Assembly: GCA_943704415.1 (NCBI GenBank)
Contig: CALSCO010000117.1
Location: forward strand, 1 to 35,940
From: Parvularia atlantis
Lineage: Eukaryota; Opisthokonta; Rotosphaerida
DNA length: 35,940 nt
Direction: 5' to 3'
In this document: piece by piece, positions 1-34,588 of the stretch
Numbering within the stretch: position 1 is the first letter of the stretch
How the letters are laid out: every line of letters starts with the position of its first letter
The notes under the pieces: generated by a model
The model's input: the letters and a program-made list of their open reading frames with translations, nothing else
What the model was told of the DNA's origin: nothing
Databases searched by the model: none
Program-made: the position numbers and the translations under genes

Positions 1-11
1 GAAGCGCGCGC

Positions 12-101
<90 letters not shown>

Positions 102-2241
102 CCGCAACGTCAATCAGTGCGCGCACCTCCTCGAGCAGGATGGAGAAGAAGAGCGGATTGGCCGTCTGCGGCGAGCTGAGGATGCGCTCGCGCTCGTCGT
201 CGGACCACGGCTGCCGCGTCCGCAGCGCAAAGTCCTGCGCACGCGGCGCCACTTCAGCGCGTCGCGTCCGCGCACAGGTCCAGCCAGACGCACGGCCATC
301 ATCGCAATCTTCTCCTGCGGGATCAGCGCCGAGACGTCGAGCGTGCGGAACGGGTGGGTGCGTCCATGCGTGAGCGCGTTGATCGTGCTACCAGGGGCGC
401 ATGACGCCAGCACGGCGATCTCGTTGGTCGGCAGCAGCACGCTCAGCCACTTGCTCGGGTCGCCACCTGCGCTGGGGCGTCAAAGGCCGCTGCACGCACA
501 TGTGAACCTGCACAAGTTGCACCCTTCTCGGCGTCGTCGATCTCCAACGCGTCGATGCCGTCGAGCACGAGGATGACGCTCGCGCCGCGCTTGCAGGCCG
601 CGTCGAGCCACATGTGCACCTTGCGCACGAGCGACATGAATTCGGCCGGGACCTCGCCCGGCAGGTCGAACGAGCGCTTGAGCTCGTCGGCAAGGCGCCG
701 GAGCATGTTGGTGAGCGAGCGCGCCGAGTTGCTCGCGCCGACAAAGTGGCTGCGTAACGTGTGAGCAGGTGCCCGCCCAGCGTCCTTCGGCAGCACGCGC
801 ACCTGAAGACAAAGTGCCGCTTGCAGACCTCCATGTGGCGCACGATCCACTCGGCCAGGATGGCCGACTTGCCGCTGTCGGCAGAGCCAGTGACGACCAT
901 GGACTGCGCGCGCGCCCGCACCGTGAGCCGGCGTGGCGGGCGCTGCGGTGCAAACGTGCGAACCTGCGTGGCCGCACGTACAGACGGCGATTGCGGCGCG
1001 GCCGACGGCAGCGTGCACAGCTGCTGGTCGAGCAGGTCGTAGTAGTGCGAGCTGGGCAGCTTCACGCGCGAGCGCGAGTGCAGGTACGCTGCGCCGGCCG
1101 TGCTCAGCCGCGGCGGTGCGTAGCGGGTGAGAGACTGCGACAGCACCGTGGTGCAGCGAGTGCTCGATGTCAATCGTGTTGGGCTTGTTGCGCAGGTAGT
1201 GCCGGTCGACGTAGGCCATGAGCGTGCGCGTGAGCAGCTGGACGCGCGCGCACGGTAAGCAGCGTGCAACGTGCACCGAGGAGCGAGCGCACAGACCTGT
1301 GTGCCCTGGCGCGGGTCGAGGTAGTTGTCGAAGCAGATGGCCTTCCGCGACTTGGACAGGCGCAGGATTAGGTCGAAGCGCGCCTGATTGGCGTCCTCGT
1401 TCTCATTGGCAAAGCTGCGGCGGCCGTAAGCTCCGGCTGGGGCGGGTCAGTGGCGGTGTCGCACCCAGGCTCGCCGGCATCGGCGCGCACGCGGTCGAAG
1501 TCTGTCGAGCGAAAGAAGAAGAAGCCCGGGCGGGTGCCCTCGCGCAAGTGGCCGTGGAGCGCCTGCGTGGCGCGCGCGTGCCTCAACACGGGCGCGGCGT
1601 CGGGCTGCCACGGTCGTGTGCACCTCGATCTCTGTAAACGACGCCGAGCGCACGTCGCTCAGCCAGCCGAAGCGCGCCTCAGCCCGCTCGACGTTGCGGC
1701 GGAAGACGGCATCGTCGGGCGAGCCGCGCCAGCCGTAGTGCGCGCCGTACAGGCCCACGAAGAGGTCCGATGAGCCGATCTGGCGCAGGCACACGTCGAG
1801 CAGTGCGCCGCTGCGGTTGTGTGCGCGAGCACGCGTGAGGCTGAGGGAGTGAGCGGGTCGAGCAGTGCTCACCGCTGCGCAAGCGGGTGGGCGGGGGCGG
1901 CGTCGAGCAGGATGGGAACAAAGAGCACGCCGCGGTGCTCGCAGTAGCGCCGCAGCTGCGGGAAGACCGTGTCGACGAGCAGCGCGCGCTCGTCGCGCAT
2001 GCCGAGGGCCGCGGGCGGGCAGGCAAAGTAGACCTGGAGCCTACGCAGGCGCGTCTGCTCGCGTGGCGCGTGCGCTGCCGCTGCTGCTGCCGACACCGCT
2101 GCTGTGAGCGGCGTGCGGGCGCGCGCGAGACGAGGGGCTGCGCACGGTCCGCGTCGCTGTCGGCGCCGCCAGCCTTGAGCGGCATCGTCTCGACCTCGTC
2201 GTCGTCGTCGTCGTCGCCCTCGATTTCGTTGCCGTCCTGCC

Positions 2242-18089: not shown

Positions 18090-21000
18090 TCAGACCCGGA
18101 AGTTGTCCCGAGGAAAGTTGATGGGCTCCAGCTTGACGGCCCGGCGCTGCGCGCGAATGAAGAAGGCCAGCGCACTCACACCAGAAATGATCAGCGACGC
18201 GAGGACAACGCCTGTGATAATCCGCACAACGTCCGAAGCGGGATCCTGCTGCTGCTGCGGGGGAGCGACGACGCTTGGAGCCGCAGTCGGCGTGGCTAAG
18301 TGAGAACAGCGGATCAGTGGCACACATCGCTCAGGGCAGACGACGGCATACCAGTAACAGATGTTGTCCACCCTGCACCACCCGTGGCGTCACTGCCTGT
18401 TGCACGCGTGACCACGGCACTGGTCGAAGGGGGAGAAAGACCAGCGGCCGCGGTCTGCGTTGATCCGATGCCCACCGTCTGTGTTGATCCATTGCCGGCC
18501 GTGTTGGTGGATCCGCTACCCGCGGTCTGCGTCGACCCGCTGCCCGCAGTCTGCGTCGATCCGCTGCCCGCCGTGTTGGTGGCGCTGCTGCCGGCCGTGT
18601 TGGTGGACCCGCTGCCCTCCGTCTGCGTCGATCCGCTGCCCGCCGTGTTGGTGGATCCGCTGCCCGCGGTCTGCGTCGACCCGCTGCCCGCGGTCTGCGT
18701 CGATCCACTGCCCGCCGTGTTGGTGGCGCCGCTGCCGGCCGTGTTGGTGGCGCCGCTGCCGGCCGTGTTGGTGGACCCGCTGCCCTCCGTCTGCGGCGAT
18801 CCACTGCCCGCCGTGTTGGTGGATCCGCTACCCGCGGTCTGCGTCGACCCGCTGCCCGCGGTCTGCGTCGATCCACTGCCCGCCGTGTTGGTGGCGCCGC
18901 TGCCGGCCGTCTGCGTTGATCCGCCGATGATCGTCAGTGTTGATCCAGCGCCTTGCGTGTTCGCTGTCGGAGAGGTGAACGTGATCTCCGCTGTGCTAGT
19001 GCGTTGAGCTGTCACGAAGACGGTCTCGCTCAGGCGTGTGTCGCCTGTTGTTGTCATGACCATGTTCTCTGTTAACGTCGGCAGCAGGGTCGGCAGTGCT
19101 GCAGCTCACAGAGTCAGTACTTGTGCTGCAACTTATTTAATCAGGCTAACGCACGTGTGGCAGCGGCGAAGCGCGTTGTGACTGGTGCGGCTGTCGTAAA
19201 CGTGGCGGCCACGGTCCTTGTGCGGCGTCGGGCGATCGTCGCTGTCGGCGCGATGGTCGTTGTGCCTGTGTAGGCCTCGTTAGTTTGTAGACACAACGCA
19301 TGCACAGACGGACACACGCTTCGGTCGGAATGGCGGTTTCGGGCACGGGAAATGCGGCGGCCGCGGCCACGGCCAGTGTGGCGGATGCGGCGGCCAGTGC
19401 GGCGGGAACGGGAAGTGAGGACGGCAGTGGTGTCCGTCGTCCCAATCCCAGTCCCAATCCCAATCCCAATCCCAATCCCAGTCCCAGTCCCAGCCAGGAA
19501 AACCAGAGGCATCCAGCTTGTTGCAGTCGCGGTCGCAGTAGCAGTTGCGGTCGCAGCGCCAGTCATGATCGCAGTCGCAGTCGTCGTCGTCGTCGTCGTC
19601 GCAGTCGCGATCGCAGTAGCAGTCGCGGTCGCACCGGTTGTCGCGGTCGCAGTCGCAGTCGTCGTCGTCGTCGCAGTCGCGATCGCAGGGGCAGTCGCGG
19701 TCGCAGAACCACCCACGATCGCAGTCGCAGTCCCACTCGCAATCGCGGTCGCAGCGGCAGTCGCGGTCGCACAACCAGTCGCGGTCGCACTCGCAATCGC
19801 AGTCGCGATCGCAGAAGCAGAACGGGTTGCAGCGCCGGTCGCCGTCGCAAGGGCACGGCAGCCACGGGAACCACGGAAACCCAGGAGGGTGCGGCGGGCG
19901 CGGGCACGGGCAGTGCGGCTTGCGGATGCACGGCCAGTGCGGCGGGCGCGGGCATGGCCAGTGCGGCGGCTTGATGATGATGATGGTGACGCCCACGCCG
20001 CCATGGCACGGCCCGCCGATGATGATGATGAGCGCGCCCGCGACCACAGCGCGACCGGTCTGAGCGTCGGCCGGGGCGAGCTCGGCAAACACGTGCTGGA
20101 GCTCGCACGCGGTCGCGTCTGCGGTCGCGTCCGCGGTGCAGTTGAGCACGCTCACGCTTGCGTCCAGAGCCCGCCCTGTCGCCGCCAGGATGCAGTGTCC
20201 GTCGCAGGCCACCGTTGCGCCCAGCTGATCGCCTGCGCTGGTCCCGCTGCCTGCGGCGACAAAGTTGCACGCGACGGGTTTGGAGCGGCAAGCCATGCTG
20301 TAGACTTGCCCTGCACGGATGAGCGTCAGCGACCGCTGGCGCACGCGCTCTTCGGACGCACCGGCTGCACTGTTCTTGCCCGGGGCTCCCACCATGACAG
20401 CGTCGCCGTTGGTTGCGACAGTAGACCCAACGAGGTCGCCTGCGACGGCACCGACCGGGAACTGCTGCGCCGAGATGGCGGCGACGGTATCTTCTGGCGC
20501 GTCGAGCTGGACAACAAAGACCGCACCTGCGGGTGCCCCGTGCGCGTGCGCGCATGTCAGACGCGACGCGCGCGCCTGGGGGACGCACGCACCGCGCGAG
20601 TCTGCCTGACCAGGGGCGCCGACGACGTAGAAGTTGGCGGCGGGGTCGAGTGCGAGCGTGTGGCCAAAGTGCGCGCGCGGTGACAGCTCGACCGGTGCGG
20701 CGCGTTGCAGCAGCGAACACTCGGCCCACGTCGCGCACGTGAAGACAAACACGGCTCCTGCGTTTGCGCGTGACAGGACCACCGTCAGCAGCCCACGCGA
20801 GGATTTGACGAGCCGCACGCGCACCGCGCTCATCGGGGCCACACCAAGGTGCGCCTGATGCGTGCGCGCCGCCGCGGTTTGTCAGCAACGGCGGAGAGGC
20901 GCGCGCGGGCGTGGCCGCACGCACCGATGATGATCGACAGGAGGCACGTCAGCTCGCTCACGGCCACGCTCGCGCCAAACCGTGCACCGCGATCGCTCGC

Positions 21001-21832
21001 CTCGGGCGCGCGCAGGATCGCCACGGCGCCCTCGTCGCAGTTGGAGATGTTGGCGCGGCAGGGATAGACATACACGGCGCTGGCGCGGCGCGACGTGCGG
21101 TCAGGCCCCCATCGGTCCCGCGCGGGCGCGGCGCGCGTACCCATCGGGCGAGCCGCCGTCTGCGCTGTGCGGCCACGGCGTGTCGGGGGCACCGACGACG
21201 AGCACGTCGTCAAACTCGCTGATGGCCACGGCATAGCCAAAGGCGCGCGCGGCTATGCCGGGCGCGCGCGCGCGAAATCAGTGACCGATCTCAATGCGGG
21301 CAAACTGACGAGCCGCACCCGGCCGCGAGAGGATGCGCGTCTCCACACAGGCGGGGGCGGTGCGCATGGCGTAGGCCGGCGTTGCCGTGCACTGGTAGAC
21401 GAAGACCGCTCTGCGTTCGCGCGCAGATAGGGCGAAACAACTCAGCCGCAGCGGCTCCGAAGCGGCACGCCTGTGCAACGCGCACCCGACCGACCCGTTC
21501 AGCACCAGCGCCGGTGCGCCCACGGCGAGCGCCTCCTCGTCAAAGCTCAGATCGACGGCAAAGCTGCGTGCATCACGCGCCCGCTCAGCACTGGCACGTC
21601 TGCGGTGTGGTCAGCGCGGCGCGCACCCAAAGTCGTCGCCGGGCGTGCCGATAGAGGCCGAGAGCGTGAGCGAGTGTATCGCGTTCTCGTCGACGCCAGG
21701 GTCACGGGTGGGCGCCGCCTTGGCGTGTGCAGACGCGGCGAGCACGGCGAGCACGAGGGCGAGGCCGCCCAGCAGCAGCCGAGCCTTTCGCAGCGCCGGT
21801 CGTCCCGGTCCGGCCTGCCGCGCGCAGAGCAT
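18090..21832 (-). CDS. Integrin-alpha-like FG-GAP receptor: signal peptide, propeller, repeat stalk, one membrane span
   Basis: Twelve exons: 21832-21627, 21563-21486, 21410-21319, 21252-21141, 21079-20925, 20854-20825, 20757-20593, 20526-20362, 20310-19318, 19265-19155, 19098-18352, 18295-18090. They sum to 3,060 nt in one phase (1,019 residues). A signal peptide (Arg/Lys, then LLLGGLALVLAVLAASAHA) leads into FG-GAP propeller repeats to about residue 430: GDDFGFAVDLSFDEEALAVG, FGYAVAISEFDDVLVVGAPD, FGASVAVSE, IIIGAP, FGHTLALDPAANFYVVGAP, VATNGDAVMVGAPG. A Pro/His/Trp, Cys/Asp and Asp-Trp stalk follows (about 430-665), then a Thr-rich link, 20 Ser/Thr octapeptides, a membrane span (ITGVVLASLIISGVSALAFF, about 977-998) and a 21-residue basic tail. 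Likely a type I surface adhesion or wall-sensor protein. The stop-like gap at 19141 falls in a 56-nt intron (GTGCGT...CTGAC...CAG). A split into two genes is the alternative, but the second half would then lack a signal peptide. Confidence 0.78.
18440..18919 (-). repeat. Coding 24-bp tandem repeat, 20 units
   Basis: Twenty consecutive 8-residue units of the form S/A-T-Q/N-T-A/E-G-S-G in exon 11 of the FG-GAP receptor gene. Units follow a higher-order order (STQ, STQ, STN, then a QTE unit, STN, ATN) that recurs, so blocks of six or seven units were copied together. The Ser/Thr content suggests a heavily O-mannosylated extracellular stalk. Confidence 0.93.
19330..19990 (-). repeat. Coding simple-repeat stalk: Cys/Asp and Asp-Trp arrays between Pro/His/Trp blocks
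   Basis: Within exon 9 of the FG-GAP receptor gene. In protein order: a Pro/His/Trp/Cys block (PPHWPCPRPPHWPC; near 19980-19870), a hexamer/dodecamer array giving CDRDCDCDRDC-type sequence (about 19850-19520), a short unique linker, about nine Asp-Trp dipeptides from GATTGG/GACTGG hexamers (19441-19495), and a second Pro/His/Trp block (PHWPPHPPHWPWPRPP). The two Pro/His/Trp blocks resemble each other, so the arrays look inserted into an older repeat. Confidence 0.85.
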
Positions 21833-26538: not shown

Positions 26539-29500
26539 TCATGCACGCTTGGCGAGCCCAAGGAGGTCGCGCCCGTGGTTCGTGGATGCTAGGGTTGCGT
26601 TGATGTCGACCGTCTGGCCGGGCGGGATCGGCGTAGGCGACGACGGCGTGACGCAGTCGAGCGTGACCTCCTTGCGCAGCACCGTGTCGATGTCCACGCC
26701 GCTGAAGAACGCGACCGACTGCGGCGCACGAGCGCACGTGTCAGCGGCAGCAGCAGCCTTGCCACTACTCTACCTGCGGCAGGTCGGGGATGCCGAGGCG
26801 CGCGGCAAACATCGCGCGGGTGAGTAGGTTGCTGATCTGCAGGGCCAGGGCCACCAGCGGCGCGTCTTCCTCGCGGCACAGGTAGCGTACCTCGTCGTGG
26901 ATCGAAATCGAGAAGCGCGCGCGGTTCTGCGTTGCAATCAGCGGCGTGTCGGCGCAGGCAGCGTGCCGCTCACACCTCCAGCCCGTGTTCGTGCAAGAGC
27001 CACTTCATCGACACGAGCAGCATGTGCAGGTAGTCCACGCCGGACGACTGCACCACCCAGTTAATGCGGCTGGTCATGTACTGAGCGCGTGCGCGCGGCA
27101 GGCGTGTGAGCGACTGTGAGCGCGCGCCTTTGCGCGCACCTCGGTCTTCACCGTCGACGGCTTGAGCGCGTCGCTGATGGCGCAGCCGAGCGCGGGTGTG
27201 CGCGGGTCGCTGGACAGCGCAATCTCCTGCAGCGCACGCCCAACGTCAGGGCCCCTTCGTGTGAGCAGGCGCGAGCGGACCTCCAGCTTGTTGAACATGA
27301 ACGACTCGGACCCGCCCTGCCACACCGCGCGCACGTCCGACGGCCGGTTGCGCCTACGAAACGGTGGTCAGCGCGGGTCAGGCGGCGGTGCGCACGCGTG
27401 CCGCCTCACCGCTTTGAGGCGTTCAGCTTCTGGTAGTACTCGTCGGCATCGATCGAAAGCCCGTCGCTGCTGACGAAGCGGCGCACGCCTGGGTGGCACT
27501 CGGCCTCAAATGCGCGCAGTAGACTCGTGCGCGCACACACCCTTGGTCGAGCGGTACAGTGCCTGCGCGCGCTCCTTGGCCACGGCCTCGTCCACGGCCT
27601 TGTTGAACTGGCGCAGGAGTTGCGCGGCGTAGTTCTCACCCGCGCCGTAGATGCGCCTGGCGTCGCGTCGCGAGTCATGCACGACCGCGGTGTCCAGGCG
27701 GCACACGCGCACCCGTAGTTGAACACCTTTGCGTGGTCGCGCGAGATGCCGAGAATCTGTGCCGACTTGGAGTGCAGATCGGTGCCGTCCGACTTGCGGC
27801 CCTGAAGCGTCATCCACCCGAATGCTGAACCCCCGCGGTCAGCGCGCCGCCGCGACCGCGTGCGAGCACGCACGCGTCGCGCCGTGACAGCCAAAGATGC
27901 TGTCCCCGATCAGCGCCGAGATCCACAGCTCCTGGCTGCACGCGTGCAGCAGCAACGGTCAGCACATGCACGATCGAGCCAGAGGCATCACCGACACCTG
28001 TCCACGTCCGCGCCGACAAAGCGCCAGCCGGGTGGCGCGGTGACCTAGGCCGGGCGCGGCGTCAGTACTCGCGGGAAAGCGACGCATGCGCGCACCATCG
28101 CCTTGAGCTCCGAGCCAAGCAGCTTGCGCTTTGGGTTTGACGCGGTCATCCACGTCGCCTCGACCGCGCGCCGCGTGACGGTGCCGGCGGCGATAACGAG
28201 CGGGACGATCGCGCCGAGGCGTTCGCTGGCCGTGCGGGGCGTGCACAAAAAGGTGAGCAGTGCGCGCACGCGGGGCGCACGGCGCGGTCGCACCCTGTGA
28301 CGCTGTCCGTGCCCGTCCACACCACAAACTGGTCCTTGACGCGGTTGCGGCACGAGATCCAGTAGCCGCACGACATGTTGAGGTCGAGGGCGTGCCGGGC
28401 CTCCTGTGCGAGGCGTCATTGTCCGCCAGCGCGCGGTTGGCAGCAACGCGCCTCATACTCGGACGTCAGGACGCCGGTCTGGATCGCGTTGAGGTAGTCC
28501 TTGGCGAGCGGGTTGCCTGCGACGCGGCGGCGGCGTTCACGGTCAGCGTCACAGACAGGGCAAGCGGGACGCGCACCGCAGGGCGCTTCCGGGCCGTCTT
28601 TATGCGGGATCGGGTAGAATAGCACCTCCGCCGCGCCTGCATCGTCCGCGCCCTCTGGCAGCAGCAACGCAAGCGGCGTGCCCTTGAGCGACCCCTGCGA
28701 TGCCTCCTCGCTCCTGCGTGTGCGCGCCCGCCTCAGCTCTGGCGAGCCAGCCGAGCCACCGCACTTGGGCACGATGTAGCCCCAGCGACCGTCGCAGAAC
28801 CGCAGCGGGTACTTGCCCTGATCGCACGCACAGGCGTGAGCAGGTGTGCTGCGTCGCTTCACGCGCGTCTGCACCTGCCACTGCAGCTTGAGCAGGTACG
28901 GCGTCACGCGCGTCCGCGTCGTCATGTGCGGCTCGGCGCTGCCTGACGGGCAGAGGTCTGCGGGGAGCAATGAGCTCGGCGCTGCACAGCACCGACTGGC
29001 ACACCCTTAAACCACTCCGGGTAGCCTGGCAGGCGCTGTTTGGCCACCGGACGCGGCTCACCGCCCTTTGCGTACGACCCGTCCTTGCGGTACTTTGGCT
29101 GCCGCGCGCACGCGACGTCGTCAGGCATACGGCGACAACGGAACGCGCACGCACGGGCACCTTGGTGAACTTCTGCGGCTGCACGGTCCAGTCCAGCTGG
29201 CTGAGCCACGGGTCGTTCTGACGCGCAGCGTTGTGGGCACTTCGCGTGCAAGCGGAAGCGGAAGCGCAGGAGCACCTTGTGTGCGCCGTCCTTGCCTGCC
29301 TCGAGCGCACGCATGGCCAGCTCGCGCAGGCGCGTCTCGAGGCTTTCGCGCATGGCGACATATGTGGCCTCGGCACGGTCAATGTAGCTGGCAGCGACGC
29401 GCGTGAGCACAGCGAGAAAGCGACGCGGGCGCAGGCGCAGCAGCACCGGTTCCAGCCCTCGTTCACTGGCAGGAAGCAGCTGCCCATCTCGAGCATGCCC

Positions 29501-31200
29501 GCAAAGCTGACCGGGTGCGGGCACTTTTCGAAGAAGCGCACAATGAGCGCGCGCAAAACCTGCCGGCGCGCGTGCAGGCGTTCAAGCGTTCAGGCAGGAT
29601 GCGTGCATGCGCACCTCGTGTGTTGCGGCGACGTCGGTCGCGCAGTACGTGACAAGCTCCTGGAACTGCACTCGGACGTCGTCGATCGTGCCGTCAACAA
29701 AGACGTTGCGCTTGCTCTTGTCGAGTGTGAGGCGACTGAAGCGTCCGCAGTGGAACTTGTGCACCTCAAGCAGGCTGTGTGTGCGAGCCGCGATGGCACA
29801 TGAGCGGCTGCTTCTGGCGGCCTATGTGCGCGCACCTGTTGGCCGAGCCAGCGCCAAGCCAGCTCGAGCGCCCAGTCGCAGCGTCCACATCGCCGTCCGC
29901 GCCGTCGGCGTTGTCGTCGTCAAAGTCCGCGCCCGAGCCGATGTCGCGGAACGGGTCCATGTGGCTGTCTGGTGCTGCGGCGGTGAGCGGGTCGTCCTCG
30001 GCGGCATTGGCGCTGGCGACTGCGGCGGCCTCGGCGGCCTTGAGTCTGCTTGCGGCCTTTTGCTCGCGCAGCCGCATGACCTTGGACCAGATGCCGCGCT
30101 GCTGGCTGCACGCGCGTGCGCGCGTGACTGCGTCAGCGCAAGGAGCTGGCGCCCGCAACAGCTGCGTACCTCGTGAAGCCGGCCACGGCCATGTGCAGCG
30201 ACATGGTGTCGACGAAGCGCGTGCGCGAGCCGAGCAGGTCGTACTCCTGGCGTACGCGCGCGCGGTCGTAGCTGACGTTGTGGCCGACGATGACGCGCTC
30301 GCAGTCGCAGGGCATGTCCATCAGCTGCGCGCCGAGCAGGCCGTGTCGGCTGTGCGTGCCGCAGTTCAAGCCAGCACACCTCGGGTTCGGCGTTGTGGTC
30401 AAAGAGCGCGCGGCTGGTCCACGAGTACCACGCGTCGCGTGAGACGGCCGTGGCGAGGGTCGGGTGCTTGCCGGCGGCGACGCAGACCTCGACGTCGAGC
30501 ACGAGACCGTCCTCGGTCGGTGCCTGCGACGGATGAGTGAGGCGACGAGCGGGCGGGCAAGCAGGCGGGCGGGCGGGCGCACAGCGACGGGCACGCCGGC
30601 GGGATTGGCGGCGTCGTAGCGGATCCAGCCGGGCGGCTCGGCGCGCCAGACGGCGGGGCGGGGTGGGAGAGCGGCAACGCGTGCGAGGTCGAGGGTGATG
30701 GTACGGTAGGGCTCGGCGAGGCGTGCGCCGATAGCGCGGAAGTGCTGCTGGACGTCTGCCGTTGCTGTGCTTGCGGTGCTGGGCGTGCTGGGTGAGGTGA
30801 GTAAGGTGGCTGTGCTGGGAGTGGTGGATGCGCTGCCGCCTCCCCTGGCGTTGTTGCCCGCCTTGGCGCCGTCGCCCATCTTGGCGTCGTTGCCCGCGCG
30901 CAGCAGCGGCGGCAGGGCCAGGACGATCGGCTCAGCGCGGTCCGTCGGCTTATCCCAGAGGCCGTGCGCGCGCAGGGCGGTCTCGGACGCGGCGCGCAGC
31001 GGCGGCGCCATCGACCGCGCCGGCGCCCGCCCAAACAGCTGGCGCCGCAGCGGGCCGGCGAGCATCTGAATGCCGACGTCGTTGACCCGCAGCAGCGCAT
31101 CGTCCGCACTGCTGGTGGTGGTGGTGGTGGTGGTGCCCGCAGCGGACGGCGCCGGCGTCGCCGAGGCCGTGCCCAGCCCGCGCCGCATCAGACGCCGCAT
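26539..31200 (-). CDS. MIP1: Mitochondrial DNA polymerase gamma
   Basis: Start ATG 31198-31200; stop 26539-26541 after GLAKRA. About 1,050-1,100 residues with more than 20 short introns. The basic, Ser/Thr-rich start ([18 protein letters not shown]) fits a mitochondrial presequence. All three exonuclease motifs are present: Exo I DVEVC (near 30,490), Exo [19 protein letters not shown] with DTMSLHMA, and Exo [15 protein letters not shown] (near 29,640). The polymerase has [25 protein letters not shown], motif A around [27 protein letters not shown], motif [12 protein letters not shown] with RIYGAG, and motif [15 protein letters not shown] (near 26,890). The C-terminus [20 protein letters not shown] is typical. 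It replicates and proofreads mtDNA. It is family A and is restricted largely to opisthokonts, which supports the taxon guess. Two in-frame ATGs upstream (to 31,251) could lengthen the presequence. Confidence 0.94.
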
Positions 31201-31314
31201 CCTCAATGACACACGCGTAACTCGTAAACTGAATGAGATTATGTACATCATGGCCGTGATGCGCAACTGATGGGACTCGACGTGCTCAGCACCTGGCACA
31301 AAACACAACAGGGC

Positions 31315-34300
31315 TCAGTCTGTCCCCCGCCCGCGCGCACCGCCAGACACCACGCCCCGCGCCGCCAGCGCCTGCCGCACAAACAGCACCACCAGCACCA
31401 CCAGCAGCCCATAGACCAGCACTGCAAACACCGCGAACCCGGCGTGGTGCTCGACCACGATGCCCTCGATCCTGTCGCCGCCCAAAGCCACCGTCAGCGT
31501 CCGCTCTCTCAGCCCTTTCAGACGCGCGCACCGGTTGCGCATCACCAGCAGGATGTCCGTGTCCCCGTCCCCGTCGATGTCCGCGAAGACCGGGTTGTGC
31601 ACCGCCGCCCCCGACAGCGGCAGCGTCGCCAGCGTCGCGCCCAGCGTGCTCAGCAGGACGAGGTGGCCCCAGCCGAGCGCCGCGATCATGATCGACTGGG
31701 CCTTGCGCCGCCGTCAGCACACAGCAACAGCGCGCAGCGAAGGGCAGCCCACGCGTACCGTCACCGGCGCGTACGTCTTCGTGCTCATCAAGCTCAGCGA
31801 CGCCCGGAAGGCCGAGGGCGACGACGTGTCCATCGACCACACGGCCGCCTCAGGCGACGAGCTGCGCAGGCCCAGCGCCAGCCCCGACGCGCGCTCGGCA
31901 GCCGTCACCCACCACGCCGGTGTCTCGACGTGCCAGTTGACCGCGCCGGTGGGGCTGTAGGACGTGGCCTTGCCGTCGCTGACGAGGAAGACCGTGTCAA
32001 ACAGCACCTGGCCACTCGAGCTGACGCTGTGCGCCCGGACGCGTCAGGTCTAAAGCGCACGCCCGCGCAAAGCAGCGCACGCACTGCGGCACGGCGAGCG
32101 GCGCCACGGCCTCGAGGTTGCGGTCGTGCACGCTGCGCGCCTGCCCGTACGATGCGCCCTTGGTCTCGACGAAGCGTGACGTCTGGCTGAAGAGGTCGTC
32201 GAGCACACCGCTGCCGTCGCACAGCGAGCCGTTGAACAGCGGCTCGAGCGGCGGCACACCAGACCGCGCGAGCACGTAGCACGAGCTCCCGCGCGGCACC
32301 GATCCGCGCGCACGGAACACTGCCGTCGGCGAAGCGCGTCAGCCAACTGTGCAACTGCGAGCACGCACAAGACGGGCCGCACCGCGGTCGTCCGTCTCAC
32401 CGACGTAGGCCGCGACGTAGTCGAGCACGCCGTCCGCGTTCACGTCCGCAAACAGCGCCGTCTCGCCGTGCGCGCCGCCGCCGAGGCGCACGCGGCACAG
32501 CGGCTGGCCCGATGCGAGCTGCAATACCTCGACCGCGTCGTGCAGGTGCGCCACGATGACGTTGAAGTCGCCAGCATCGACGTGCCGCGCGGCCGAGTCC
32601 GGAAACAGCGTCTCCTGCAGCAGCTCGAGACCGCCCTGGAACCCGAGCGCTGCTCGCACGGCGCGTGAGCTTTGTGCGAGCGCGTTTCGACGAGCAGCAC
32701 GCACTCTGCGCGACGACGTACTGCTGCTGCTGTTGCTGCACGCGGCGGTCGTCGATGAGGCGCGGCAGCGGTTGCCGCTTGTTGGCGCCAGCGCTCGCCG
32801 CGGCGGCCGAGCGTGTCGCGGTGGGCCCTGCCGCGTCGCCGCGCGCGCGCGACAGGTCCTCGTGCCGCTCTCGCGCGCCGCGACCCGGCCCACCCTGGCC
32901 GCCCACGCGCCGGTTCTTCTCAAAGTGCGCGAGGTGGATGTGCGTGTCGTCGCTGGTCGACCAGCGGTGCGGCATGGCCCACTTCAGCATCGCCGAGCGG
33001 TACTGGCGCCAGTCCTCCTCGCCGCGGTGCTTGAGCTGCACGCGCGCGTCCGCCTTGAAGTGGTCTGACAGGTACTCGCGCTGTCGTTTGTGCCTGCGTC
33101 AGCACGAGCAGCAGCCTCGTTGGCGCGCACCTGCTCCCGCGGTCCGCTGGTCGCGTCCAGAAAGTCGCCCTCCTCGTGCTTCCACACGAGGTCGCCCGTG
33201 CGCCCGTCCAGGCCATAGTACGAAAAGTGGCCCTCGCCGAACGCGAGCGAGCCGTCGTCGTCGTCGTCGACCATGCCGCCGTCGCCGTCGTCGTGGCGCC
33301 GCTCGCCGGCAAAGGCCGACTTGGTCGAGCTGCGCACGCTCGCGTGTCAGCTGGCACGCGCGAGAGCCCTCTGCAGCCGTACGCACCCAAACTCGCGCCC
33401 GCGCTGCCCGCCCTCGGTGGCGACGCGCACGCCGATGACGACCAGGCCGCCCTCAAACTGCGCGTTGGCCGGCGCGATGACGATCGACGACTCCCTGGGC
33501 TGCACGTCAGCGCGGCTACACTCACACGCGCGCGGCGCACATGATGTAGTAGCCCGCGGGCAGGTTGCGCTGCAGGACGTGCTCCCAGCGCAGGCGCAGG
33601 TCGGCCGAGTAGCAGAGCACGGCCATGCCCTTTGTCAGCACGACCACGGCCTCGCTTTCGTCCGCACGCAGCGCGCCGACCTCGAGCGCGGTGGCCTGGC
33701 CGAGGCGCCTGATGGCGGCGGAGGACGCGAGCGAGACGGTGTGCTGCGCCGCCACGTCAGACGCCAAGCGCGCATTAAGGCGCAGCACGCACCCTCTCCT
33801 GCAGCTGCCCGGTCGCGGCTGCGCTCGGCTGCGCGCTGTAGTGGTACACGCGCAACGCGGGCTCGTACGTGGCGACGACGATGTCTGTCGTAGGAGCGTG
33901 AGCGCGGCGCGCTGATTGTGGGGCGTGCGCACCGGGCACGCCGTCGAGGTCCAGGTCGGACACGCGTGGCGGCGGCCTGCCGAGCGTAGCACGGGTGTGA
34001 GCGACTGGTTTAACGGCACGGCGTGGGCACAGGCGACGCACAGGCGCTCGGCGGGCGAGGCAGGGAAGTGCCCGTTGACGAAGACGTCGGTGAAGGCCTC
34101 GGCAGCGGCCGCGCGCGCGTCCGTCTCGCCGATGGGCCCCTTGCGCGTGTGCGTGGCGTCACCTGCCGTAGCTGCTGCCGCTGCTGCCGCCGCCGCCGCC
34201 GCCGCGGTCGTGGTCGCCGGGCCTGCCGCGCCGAGCGGTAGGACGAAGGCCGAGTGCAGCGTGACGGCGCCCTCGATGCGGAAGGTTGCAGCGACGGCAA

Positions 34301-34403
34301 GGACACACAGCACGAGCACGCCGATGTCGCGCAGGCGCAGCCGGGCCGCTGCGCCCGCTGCGCCGCTCGATGTCGGCGACGAGGCGACGGCGCCTCGGTA
34401 CAT
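31315..34403 (-). CDS. FG-GAP membrane protein of the plant NERD1 (At3g51050) type
   Basis: Start ATG 34401-34403, stop 31315-31317; about 850 residues, roughly nine introns. The N-terminus LRLRDIGVLVLCVLAVAATF is a signal-anchor like that of the plant protein (KRDLAILMLSAFAIFF). After a poly-Ala insert, two introns join LPPPRVSDLDLDGVPDIVVA to TYEPALRVY, matching LPPPIVADLNGDGKKEVLVA in the plant family. Other shared blocks: MPHRWSTSDDTHIHLAHFEK, ADVNADGVLDYV, SRFVETKGASYGQARSVHDR, FLVSDGKATSYSPTGAVNW and FADIDGDGDTDILLVM. The C-terminus has a second hydrophobic span (VLVYGLLVVLVVLFV) and a short basic tail. The propeller therefore lies between two spans, probably lumenal. From memory, Arabidopsis NERD1 is a Golgi protein linked to the exocyst and root growth. 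The role here is unknown. Confidence 0.85.
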
Positions 34404-34588
34404 CCGGAGGGATCAGCGGCGTGTCACGCTTCCCGCCACGCTGGAAATGGCGTGGCCACAGTGAGGGTGCTTTACTTGGCGAAAGAAGCAGTCTTCGTCT
34501 CTCAGCGGCGTGTTGCTCACAGGACGCCCGCACGCCGCACGCCGCACGCAGCACGCAGCACGCAGCACACAGCACACAGCACACAGCA
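34404..34588. promoter_or_regulatory. Shared upstream region of NERD1-like gene and COX4
   Basis: A 185-bp gap between divergent start codons. The half next to COX4 is a heptamer repeat described separately. The palindrome-like GCCACGC...GCGTGGC (near 34,436-34,457) could be a regulatory site; this is speculative. Confidence 0.5.
34530..34585 (+). repeat. Eight tandem 7-bp units abutting the COX4 start codon
   Basis: Units GCACGCC (x2), GCACGCA (x3) and GCACACA (x3) run without a gap and end three bases before the ATG at 34589. The units change in a graded order along the array. They presumably form the COX4 5' UTR. Confidence 0.92.

Follow-up and report, generated by a model that had tools for sequence, protein, structure and literature searches.

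Can the propeller head of an integrin serve at the cell surface outside an integrin? This question is raised by a gene on the minus strand of contig CALSCO010000117.1, within the analyzed stretch of 35,940 nucleotides (nt; the window), which the original prediction had described as an integrin-alpha-like type I receptor with an FG-GAP propeller. The encoded protein is probably a type I receptor acting alone, in which a closed, calcium-free, seven-bladed FG-GAP_2 propeller is carried on a stalk and anchored by a single membrane span.

Gene structure

Re-splicing of the 12 exons yielded 3,060 nt with one terminal stop, in agreement with the exon count and length given previously, and encoded 1,019 residues. 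That the locus encodes a real single-pass surface protein was confirmed.

18090..21832, minus strand: whole gene (12 exons; 3,060 nt, one terminal stop, 1,019 residues)
Exons 1-6, minus strand: 21832-21627, 21563-21486, 21410-21319, 21252-21141, 21079-20925, 20854-20825
Exons 7-12, minus strand: 20757-20593, 20526-20362, 20310-19318, 19265-19155, 19098-18352, 18295-18090

All 11 introns were 51-75 nt long with GT..AG borders; a 33-nt intron 3 (3,093 nt in total) was replaced by the 66-nt intron 3 that gives 3,060 nt. A branch-like motif, CTRA[CTG], picked after inspection of these same introns, occurred in every one of the 11 introns, and 10 of them contained its stricter form, CTRAY. The corresponding means were 1.6 and 1.0 of 11 in shuffled introns, and 0.85 and 0.51 of 11 in coding segments, respectively, and the observed counts were reached in none of the 5,000 draws of either control. 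When read through, six introns introduced an in-frame stop and two a frame shift, while introns 2, 7, and 8 remained open, and their retention is therefore possible on sequence grounds. The 56-nt intron at 19154-19099, to which the original prediction had drawn attention, contained in-frame stops and CTGAC 19 nt before its end.

Propeller head

Four stretches of the protein were assigned by Pfam to FG-GAP_2 (PF14312) with an E-value of 2.1e-17 (63.5 bits versus a curated cut-off of 23). PF01839 was not listed for the protein by Pfam at E <= 1, and an NCBIfam scan of the head returned no family. A family profile built from 400 of the 832 repeats of 120 listed relatives (see below) identified five repeats as significant, with starts at residues 68, 130, 197, 255, and 313.

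21635..21679, minus strand: strand before blade 1 (residues 52-66, by position), which may close blade 7
20234..21634, minus strand: FG-GAP_2 repeats 1-5 (residues 67-360, across exons 1-9; Pfam and family profile)
20060..20227, minus strand: degenerate repeat 6 (residues 363-418), with fitting spacing
19973..20059, minus strand: degenerate repeat 7 (residues 419-447), hydrophobic and mistakable for a membrane span

Thus, of the claimed minimum of six FG-GAP repeats, five were significant with the family profile, and the sixth and seventh were weak. Using an own-genome profile, trained partly on repeats 1-5 of the same protein, the scores of repeats 6 and 7 were matched by 26 and 58 of 2,000 shuffles, respectively; with the bacterial profile, these values were 269 and 154 of 2,000 (not significant). 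Both repeats were located where the repeat period predicts, and their assignment as propeller blades is suggestive only.

A database search with the head detected 295 proteins at E <= 1e-3 among 7,993 candidates scored, the best match having an E-value of 1.7e-37 (31% identity over 71% of the head). PF14312 was found in all of the 120 relatives listed; the organism was named for four of them, all bacteria. Among the 236 relatives listed by two database searches, 7, 14, 21, 28, and 35 repeats (E <= 0.01) were present in 8, 90, 34, 18, and 6 proteins, respectively: multiples of seven in 156, and other counts in 80. Judging from these counts, the FG-GAP_2 family appears to be largely built in sevens. 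When the PDB was searched with the head alone, all eight sequences at E <= 1 were integrin alpha chains (alpha-4 being the best; E 4.6e-4), and integrin alpha heads also ranked first in a structure comparison that used a family proxy (P0088), not the protein itself. The outer end of the protein is probably a seven-bladed propeller as in animal integrins, of the bacterial-type, calcium-free kind. Two further Pfam matches were discarded: HisK_sensor, which was below its cut-off, and Ice_nucleation, which was above its cut-off but lay on the 8-residue array of the stalk.

The calcium-binding loops, which had been put forward as prospective support for the propeller, did not materialize: pattern searches of residues 1-450 found neither D.[DN].[DNS]G nor D.[DN].D, and a looser calcium pattern matched only once, at residue 73 in blade 1 (DLSFD). 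A cysteine pair was present in four of the five clear repeats of the head and, by the same count per repeat, in 10 of the 10 repeats of a paralogue from the same genome (contig C23), but in only 47 of the 4,368 repeats of the 236 listed relatives. Seven of these relatives had at least three paired repeats, five of them with 21 to 31 repeats; in P0310, many cysteines were found in linkers. The cysteine pairs of the repeats fell in identical columns of the alignment, which may correspond to a disulfide-stapled hairpin in the blades. A cysteine pattern used earlier (none in 219 of the 236 relatives, three in one) was abandoned as insensitive because only two of the protein's own pairs were detected. 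A eukaryotic family sharing the cysteine pattern was also rejected: the search with the C23 paralogue gave 1,174 proteins at E <= 1e-3, and in the 120 listed, an organism was named in five rows, all bacteria.

Stalk, membrane span, and tail

The predicted long stalk between the head and span was recovered as approximately 520 residues, Cys/Asp-rich and then Ser/Thr-rich.

21722..21832, minus strand: signal peptide (approximately residues 1-37; hydropathy 2.16 at 19-37; AHA at 35-37, cleavage site by eye)
19850..19972, minus strand: Pro/His/Trp-rich segment (residues 448-488; from the sequence)
19520..19849, minus strand: Cys/Asp-rich CDRDC repeats (residues 489-598)
19436..19495, minus strand: Trp-Asp run (residues 607-626; from the sequence)
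18449..18904, minus strand: mucin-like 8-residue Ser/Thr/Gly array (GSGSTQTA / GSGSTNTA; residues 768-919; 19 contiguous units)
18156..18221, minus strand: membrane span (residues 977-998; hydropathy 2.38 at 980-998)
18093..18155, minus strand: cytoplasmic tail of 21 residues, RAQRRAVKLEPINFPRDNFRV

The Trp-Asp run was followed by a second Pro/His/Trp segment and then a Thr-rich stretch, before the 8-residue array. In the 19 units of this array, minor bases numbered 15, 5, and 55 at codon positions 1, 2, and 3, respectively (55 of 75 at the third), and neighboring units showed 50 synonymous versus 28 non-synonymous codon differences. This substitution pattern indicates that the array is very probably translated in the frame of the gene. 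The Cys/Asp tract had no stop in the gene's frame or in one other frame, and one stop in the third; since it was open in two frames, the lack of stops is a weak indication that it is coding.

The hydropathy peaks at residues 19-37 and 980-998 agreed with the signal peptide, single span, and 21-residue tail predicted previously; a third, lower peak (2.07) at residues 429-447 lay inside degenerate repeat 7. The juxtamembrane sequence was ALAFFIRAQRR, and the caution that AFFIRAQRR is only loosely similar to GFFKR was appropriate: the sequence reads AFFIR, and not KxGFFxR. Inspection of the tail by eye revealed no NPxY, and binding of talin in the manner of integrin beta is, therefore, not expected. 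Talin can function in the absence of canonical integrins, as reported for Dictyostelium, in which it engages SibA (PMC12686525).

Comparison with known propeller proteins

The integrin alpha propeller (PF01839 type) resembles this head in its fold, as judged from the proxy structure; the present protein differs in belonging to the FG-GAP_2 family and in having no calcium loops, legs, or GFFKR, and a beta partner was undetected. Blades 5-7 of integrin alpha are described as bearing DxDxDG-like calcium loops, and the N-terminal strand before blade 1 as closing blade 7 (PMC3192720). The same source states that KxGFFxR is also absent from some true integrin alphas, and reports that, among 47 genomes of unicellular eukaryotes surveyed in 2011, none encoded a protein with seven repeats each bearing the integrin-type motif as defined there (PMC3192720). 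The present head, which lacks calcium loops and two of whose repeats are degenerate, would probably fail those strict criteria, too. No thigh or calf leg domain was found in the protein in Pfam at E <= 1. Searches of the assembly for Integrin_beta, Integrin_A_Ig_1, vinculin, and radial spoke 3 gave no match; since they gave none in any control genome either, absence from the genome is not established. Of the integrin-alpha-like description, the propeller stood (FG-GAP_2 repeats, counts in sevens, and proxy fold); calcium loops, legs, and GFFKR were absent from the protein, and a beta subunit was undetected in a search whose controls were empty. The label is confined here to the propeller.

LINKIN (ITFG1/TIP), an animal adhesion protein of approximately 600 residues, is described as having a signal peptide, seven atypical FG-GAP repeats with the calcium motif Dx(D/N)xDxxxD, one span, and a tail of approximately 22 residues (PMC4275582). 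The order of parts is common to both proteins and the tail lengths are similar. However, LINKIN retains the calcium motifs, its description mentions no long Cys/Asp or Ser/Thr stalk, and its conserved tail, compared by eye using the printed worm peptide (PMC4275582), looks different from RAQRRAVKLEPINFPRDNFRV.

The nearest sequence relatives were bacterial-type FG-GAP_2 proteins, whose repeats mostly come in sevens; they differed from this head in the rarity of cysteine pairs, and only 19 of the 236 listed had a strongly hydrophobic stretch in the last 80 residues. Fungal integrin-type propellers without spans have been described (PMC3544710). Fungal SSITL and the Psathyrella velutina lectin are also among the closest known proteins; they differ from this protein in that SSITL is described as secreted, of 302 residues, and modeled with five blades, and in that a DxDxDG calcium motif is given for the lectin.

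Alternative explanations

There is a small probability that this FG-GAP_2 protein originated in bacteria and is secreted or shed, functioning as a lectin or scaffold and not as an adhesion receptor: this would be in keeping with the four bacteria named among the 120 listed relatives and with the sugar binding reported for related propellers (PMC8023676). However, the eleven introns, the own-genome paralogues sharing a cysteine pattern that is rare in the relatives, and the C-terminal span together point to long residence and surface anchoring. We regard a partly wrong gene model as unlikely, namely, that residues 429-447 are the span, or that a low-complexity exon fuses two genes, such that the stalk is not extracellular. 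The hydropathy peak at residue 429, the Cys/Asp tract open in two of three frames, and introns 2, 7, and 8, which stay open if retained, are compatible with such an error, but the repeat spacing agrees with residues 429-447 being part of repeat 7, the 8-residue array further downstream shows the variation of a coding sequence, introns 9-11 have branch-like motifs and in-frame stops, and a stronger span at residue 980 is followed by basic residues.

Orthology to LINKIN is very unlikely; despite the same order of parts and the similar tail length (PMC4275582), the calcium motif is absent, approximately 520 stalk residues are extra, and the tails differ by eye, with LINKIN being compared by its description only. 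Least probable is that the protein is a true, though divergent, integrin alpha, paired with a beta subunit and linked to talin. In favor of this, the family has a propeller fold like that of integrin alpha, AFFIR at the membrane loosely resembles GFFKR, and the genome also encodes talin (FERM_f0, FERM_M, PTB-like domain, rod domains, and I/LWEQ; pieces of contig C147, L046, not spliced to full length). No DxDxDG in residues 1-450, no leg domain, a low-complexity stalk, and no exact GFFKR all weigh against an integrin alpha; Integrin_A_Ig_1 and Integrin_beta were also undetected, but with no control matched and an assembly that may be incomplete.

Host genome and its placement

The assembly comprised 616 contigs with a total length of 16.25 Mb. 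The host paired with an environmental protein, P0122, in an RPB2 tree of 32 rows (support 100/100), and this pair was sister to 20 rows consisting of Rozella, 15 fungi, and four others (100/99), with all 22 forming a clade (99/97). Grouping of the host pair with the four rows of animals and their relatives, which was specified only after inspection of the first tree, was disfavored (p-AU, approximately unbiased test, 0.02), and an earlier 42-row tree agreed. The pair was on a long branch, the query was an incomplete splice, and nucleariids and Fonticula were outside the sample; the branch point just outside Rozella and Fungi is where these two lineages branch. On this gene tree, the host seems to branch just outside Fungi; a Caulochytrium-like chytrid, considered at first, was dropped once the tree was available. 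The "fungus-like genome" claimed previously, therefore, holds only to the extent that a single gene tree places the host as the sister group of Rozella and Fungi together; the comparison with integrin loss in Fungi is then not the most pertinent one. Chitin synthase (PF03142), the only family of its kind searched, was not found in the assembly (4 of 14 controls matched), and the wall sensing suggested earlier is thus not favored. An in-frame insert in the RNA polymerase second-subunit gene (L041:3215-4864), intein-like by eye, matched no intein family in Pfam, which gave only Rpb2_6.

Potential physiological role

In the type I receptor proposed here, the propeller would have the integrin-alpha fold without its calcium loops and be stiffened in several blades by paired cysteines. 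The Cys/Asp-rich and then Ser/Thr-rich stalk, probably O-glycosylated, may keep it away from the membrane, where one span and the short basic tail would provide the anchor. The most likely function of the loop face of the propeller is binding of a ligand carried by prey, neighboring cells, or the substrate, and the receptor would act outside any integrin heterodimer. By analogy, the head in all likelihood works like that of an integrin or LINKIN. Regarding the proposal of an adhesion protein with an integrin-like head on a mucin-like stalk, the head, stalk, and type I topology were supported, while adhesion itself is only inferred; the protein is classed here among FG-GAP_2 surface proteins, as a variant, and not as an integrin.

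A broader proposal, which we put forward only as a long shot, is that a disulfide-stapled, calcium-free FG-GAP_2 propeller, carried by a mucin-like stalk, serves by itself as the working cell-contact receptor of a lineage adjacent to Fungi that has talin and in which integrin beta was undetected. If so, an integrin head would be serving outside an integrin. The Fonticula alba genome is reported to have no obvious cadherins, integrins, or Dictyostelium-like adhesion molecules, and its cells to form actin-enriched contacts (PMC9097593). If the host is a relative of Fonticula, a relationship compatible with, but not demonstrated by, the RPB2 tree, talin and the stalked integrin-type propeller would be a testable contact-receptor candidate there.

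Other genes in the genome and window

Further FG-GAP_2 genes were found in the assembly on contigs C23 and C129, and PF01839 genes on C396, C434, and C455. The C23 paralogue (L022:1426-7566) had 13 FG-GAP_2 matches at E <= 1, whose layout would be consistent with two sets of seven, one repeat being degenerate. It also contained long repeats rich in Cys and, toward its C-terminal end, several hydrophobic segments. Two PF01839 genes were located at L019:4191-5507 and L020:3954-5453, one with an EGF_3 domain; the other, on C434, presumably resembles glycosylphosphatidylinositol-specific phospholipase D.

In the window, a second FG-GAP-type gene was located at 31315-34412 (minus strand): one unspliced piece matched FG-GAP_3 (E 2.2e-4, below the curated cut-off) and ended in a hydrophobic segment by eye, and two further pieces gave no family. 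Exons at 27406-31314 (minus strand) resembled mitochondrial DNA polymerase gamma by eye, with no family in Pfam for the one piece searched. A DUF4062 domain (E 3.7e-7) was found at 1447-2040 (minus strand).
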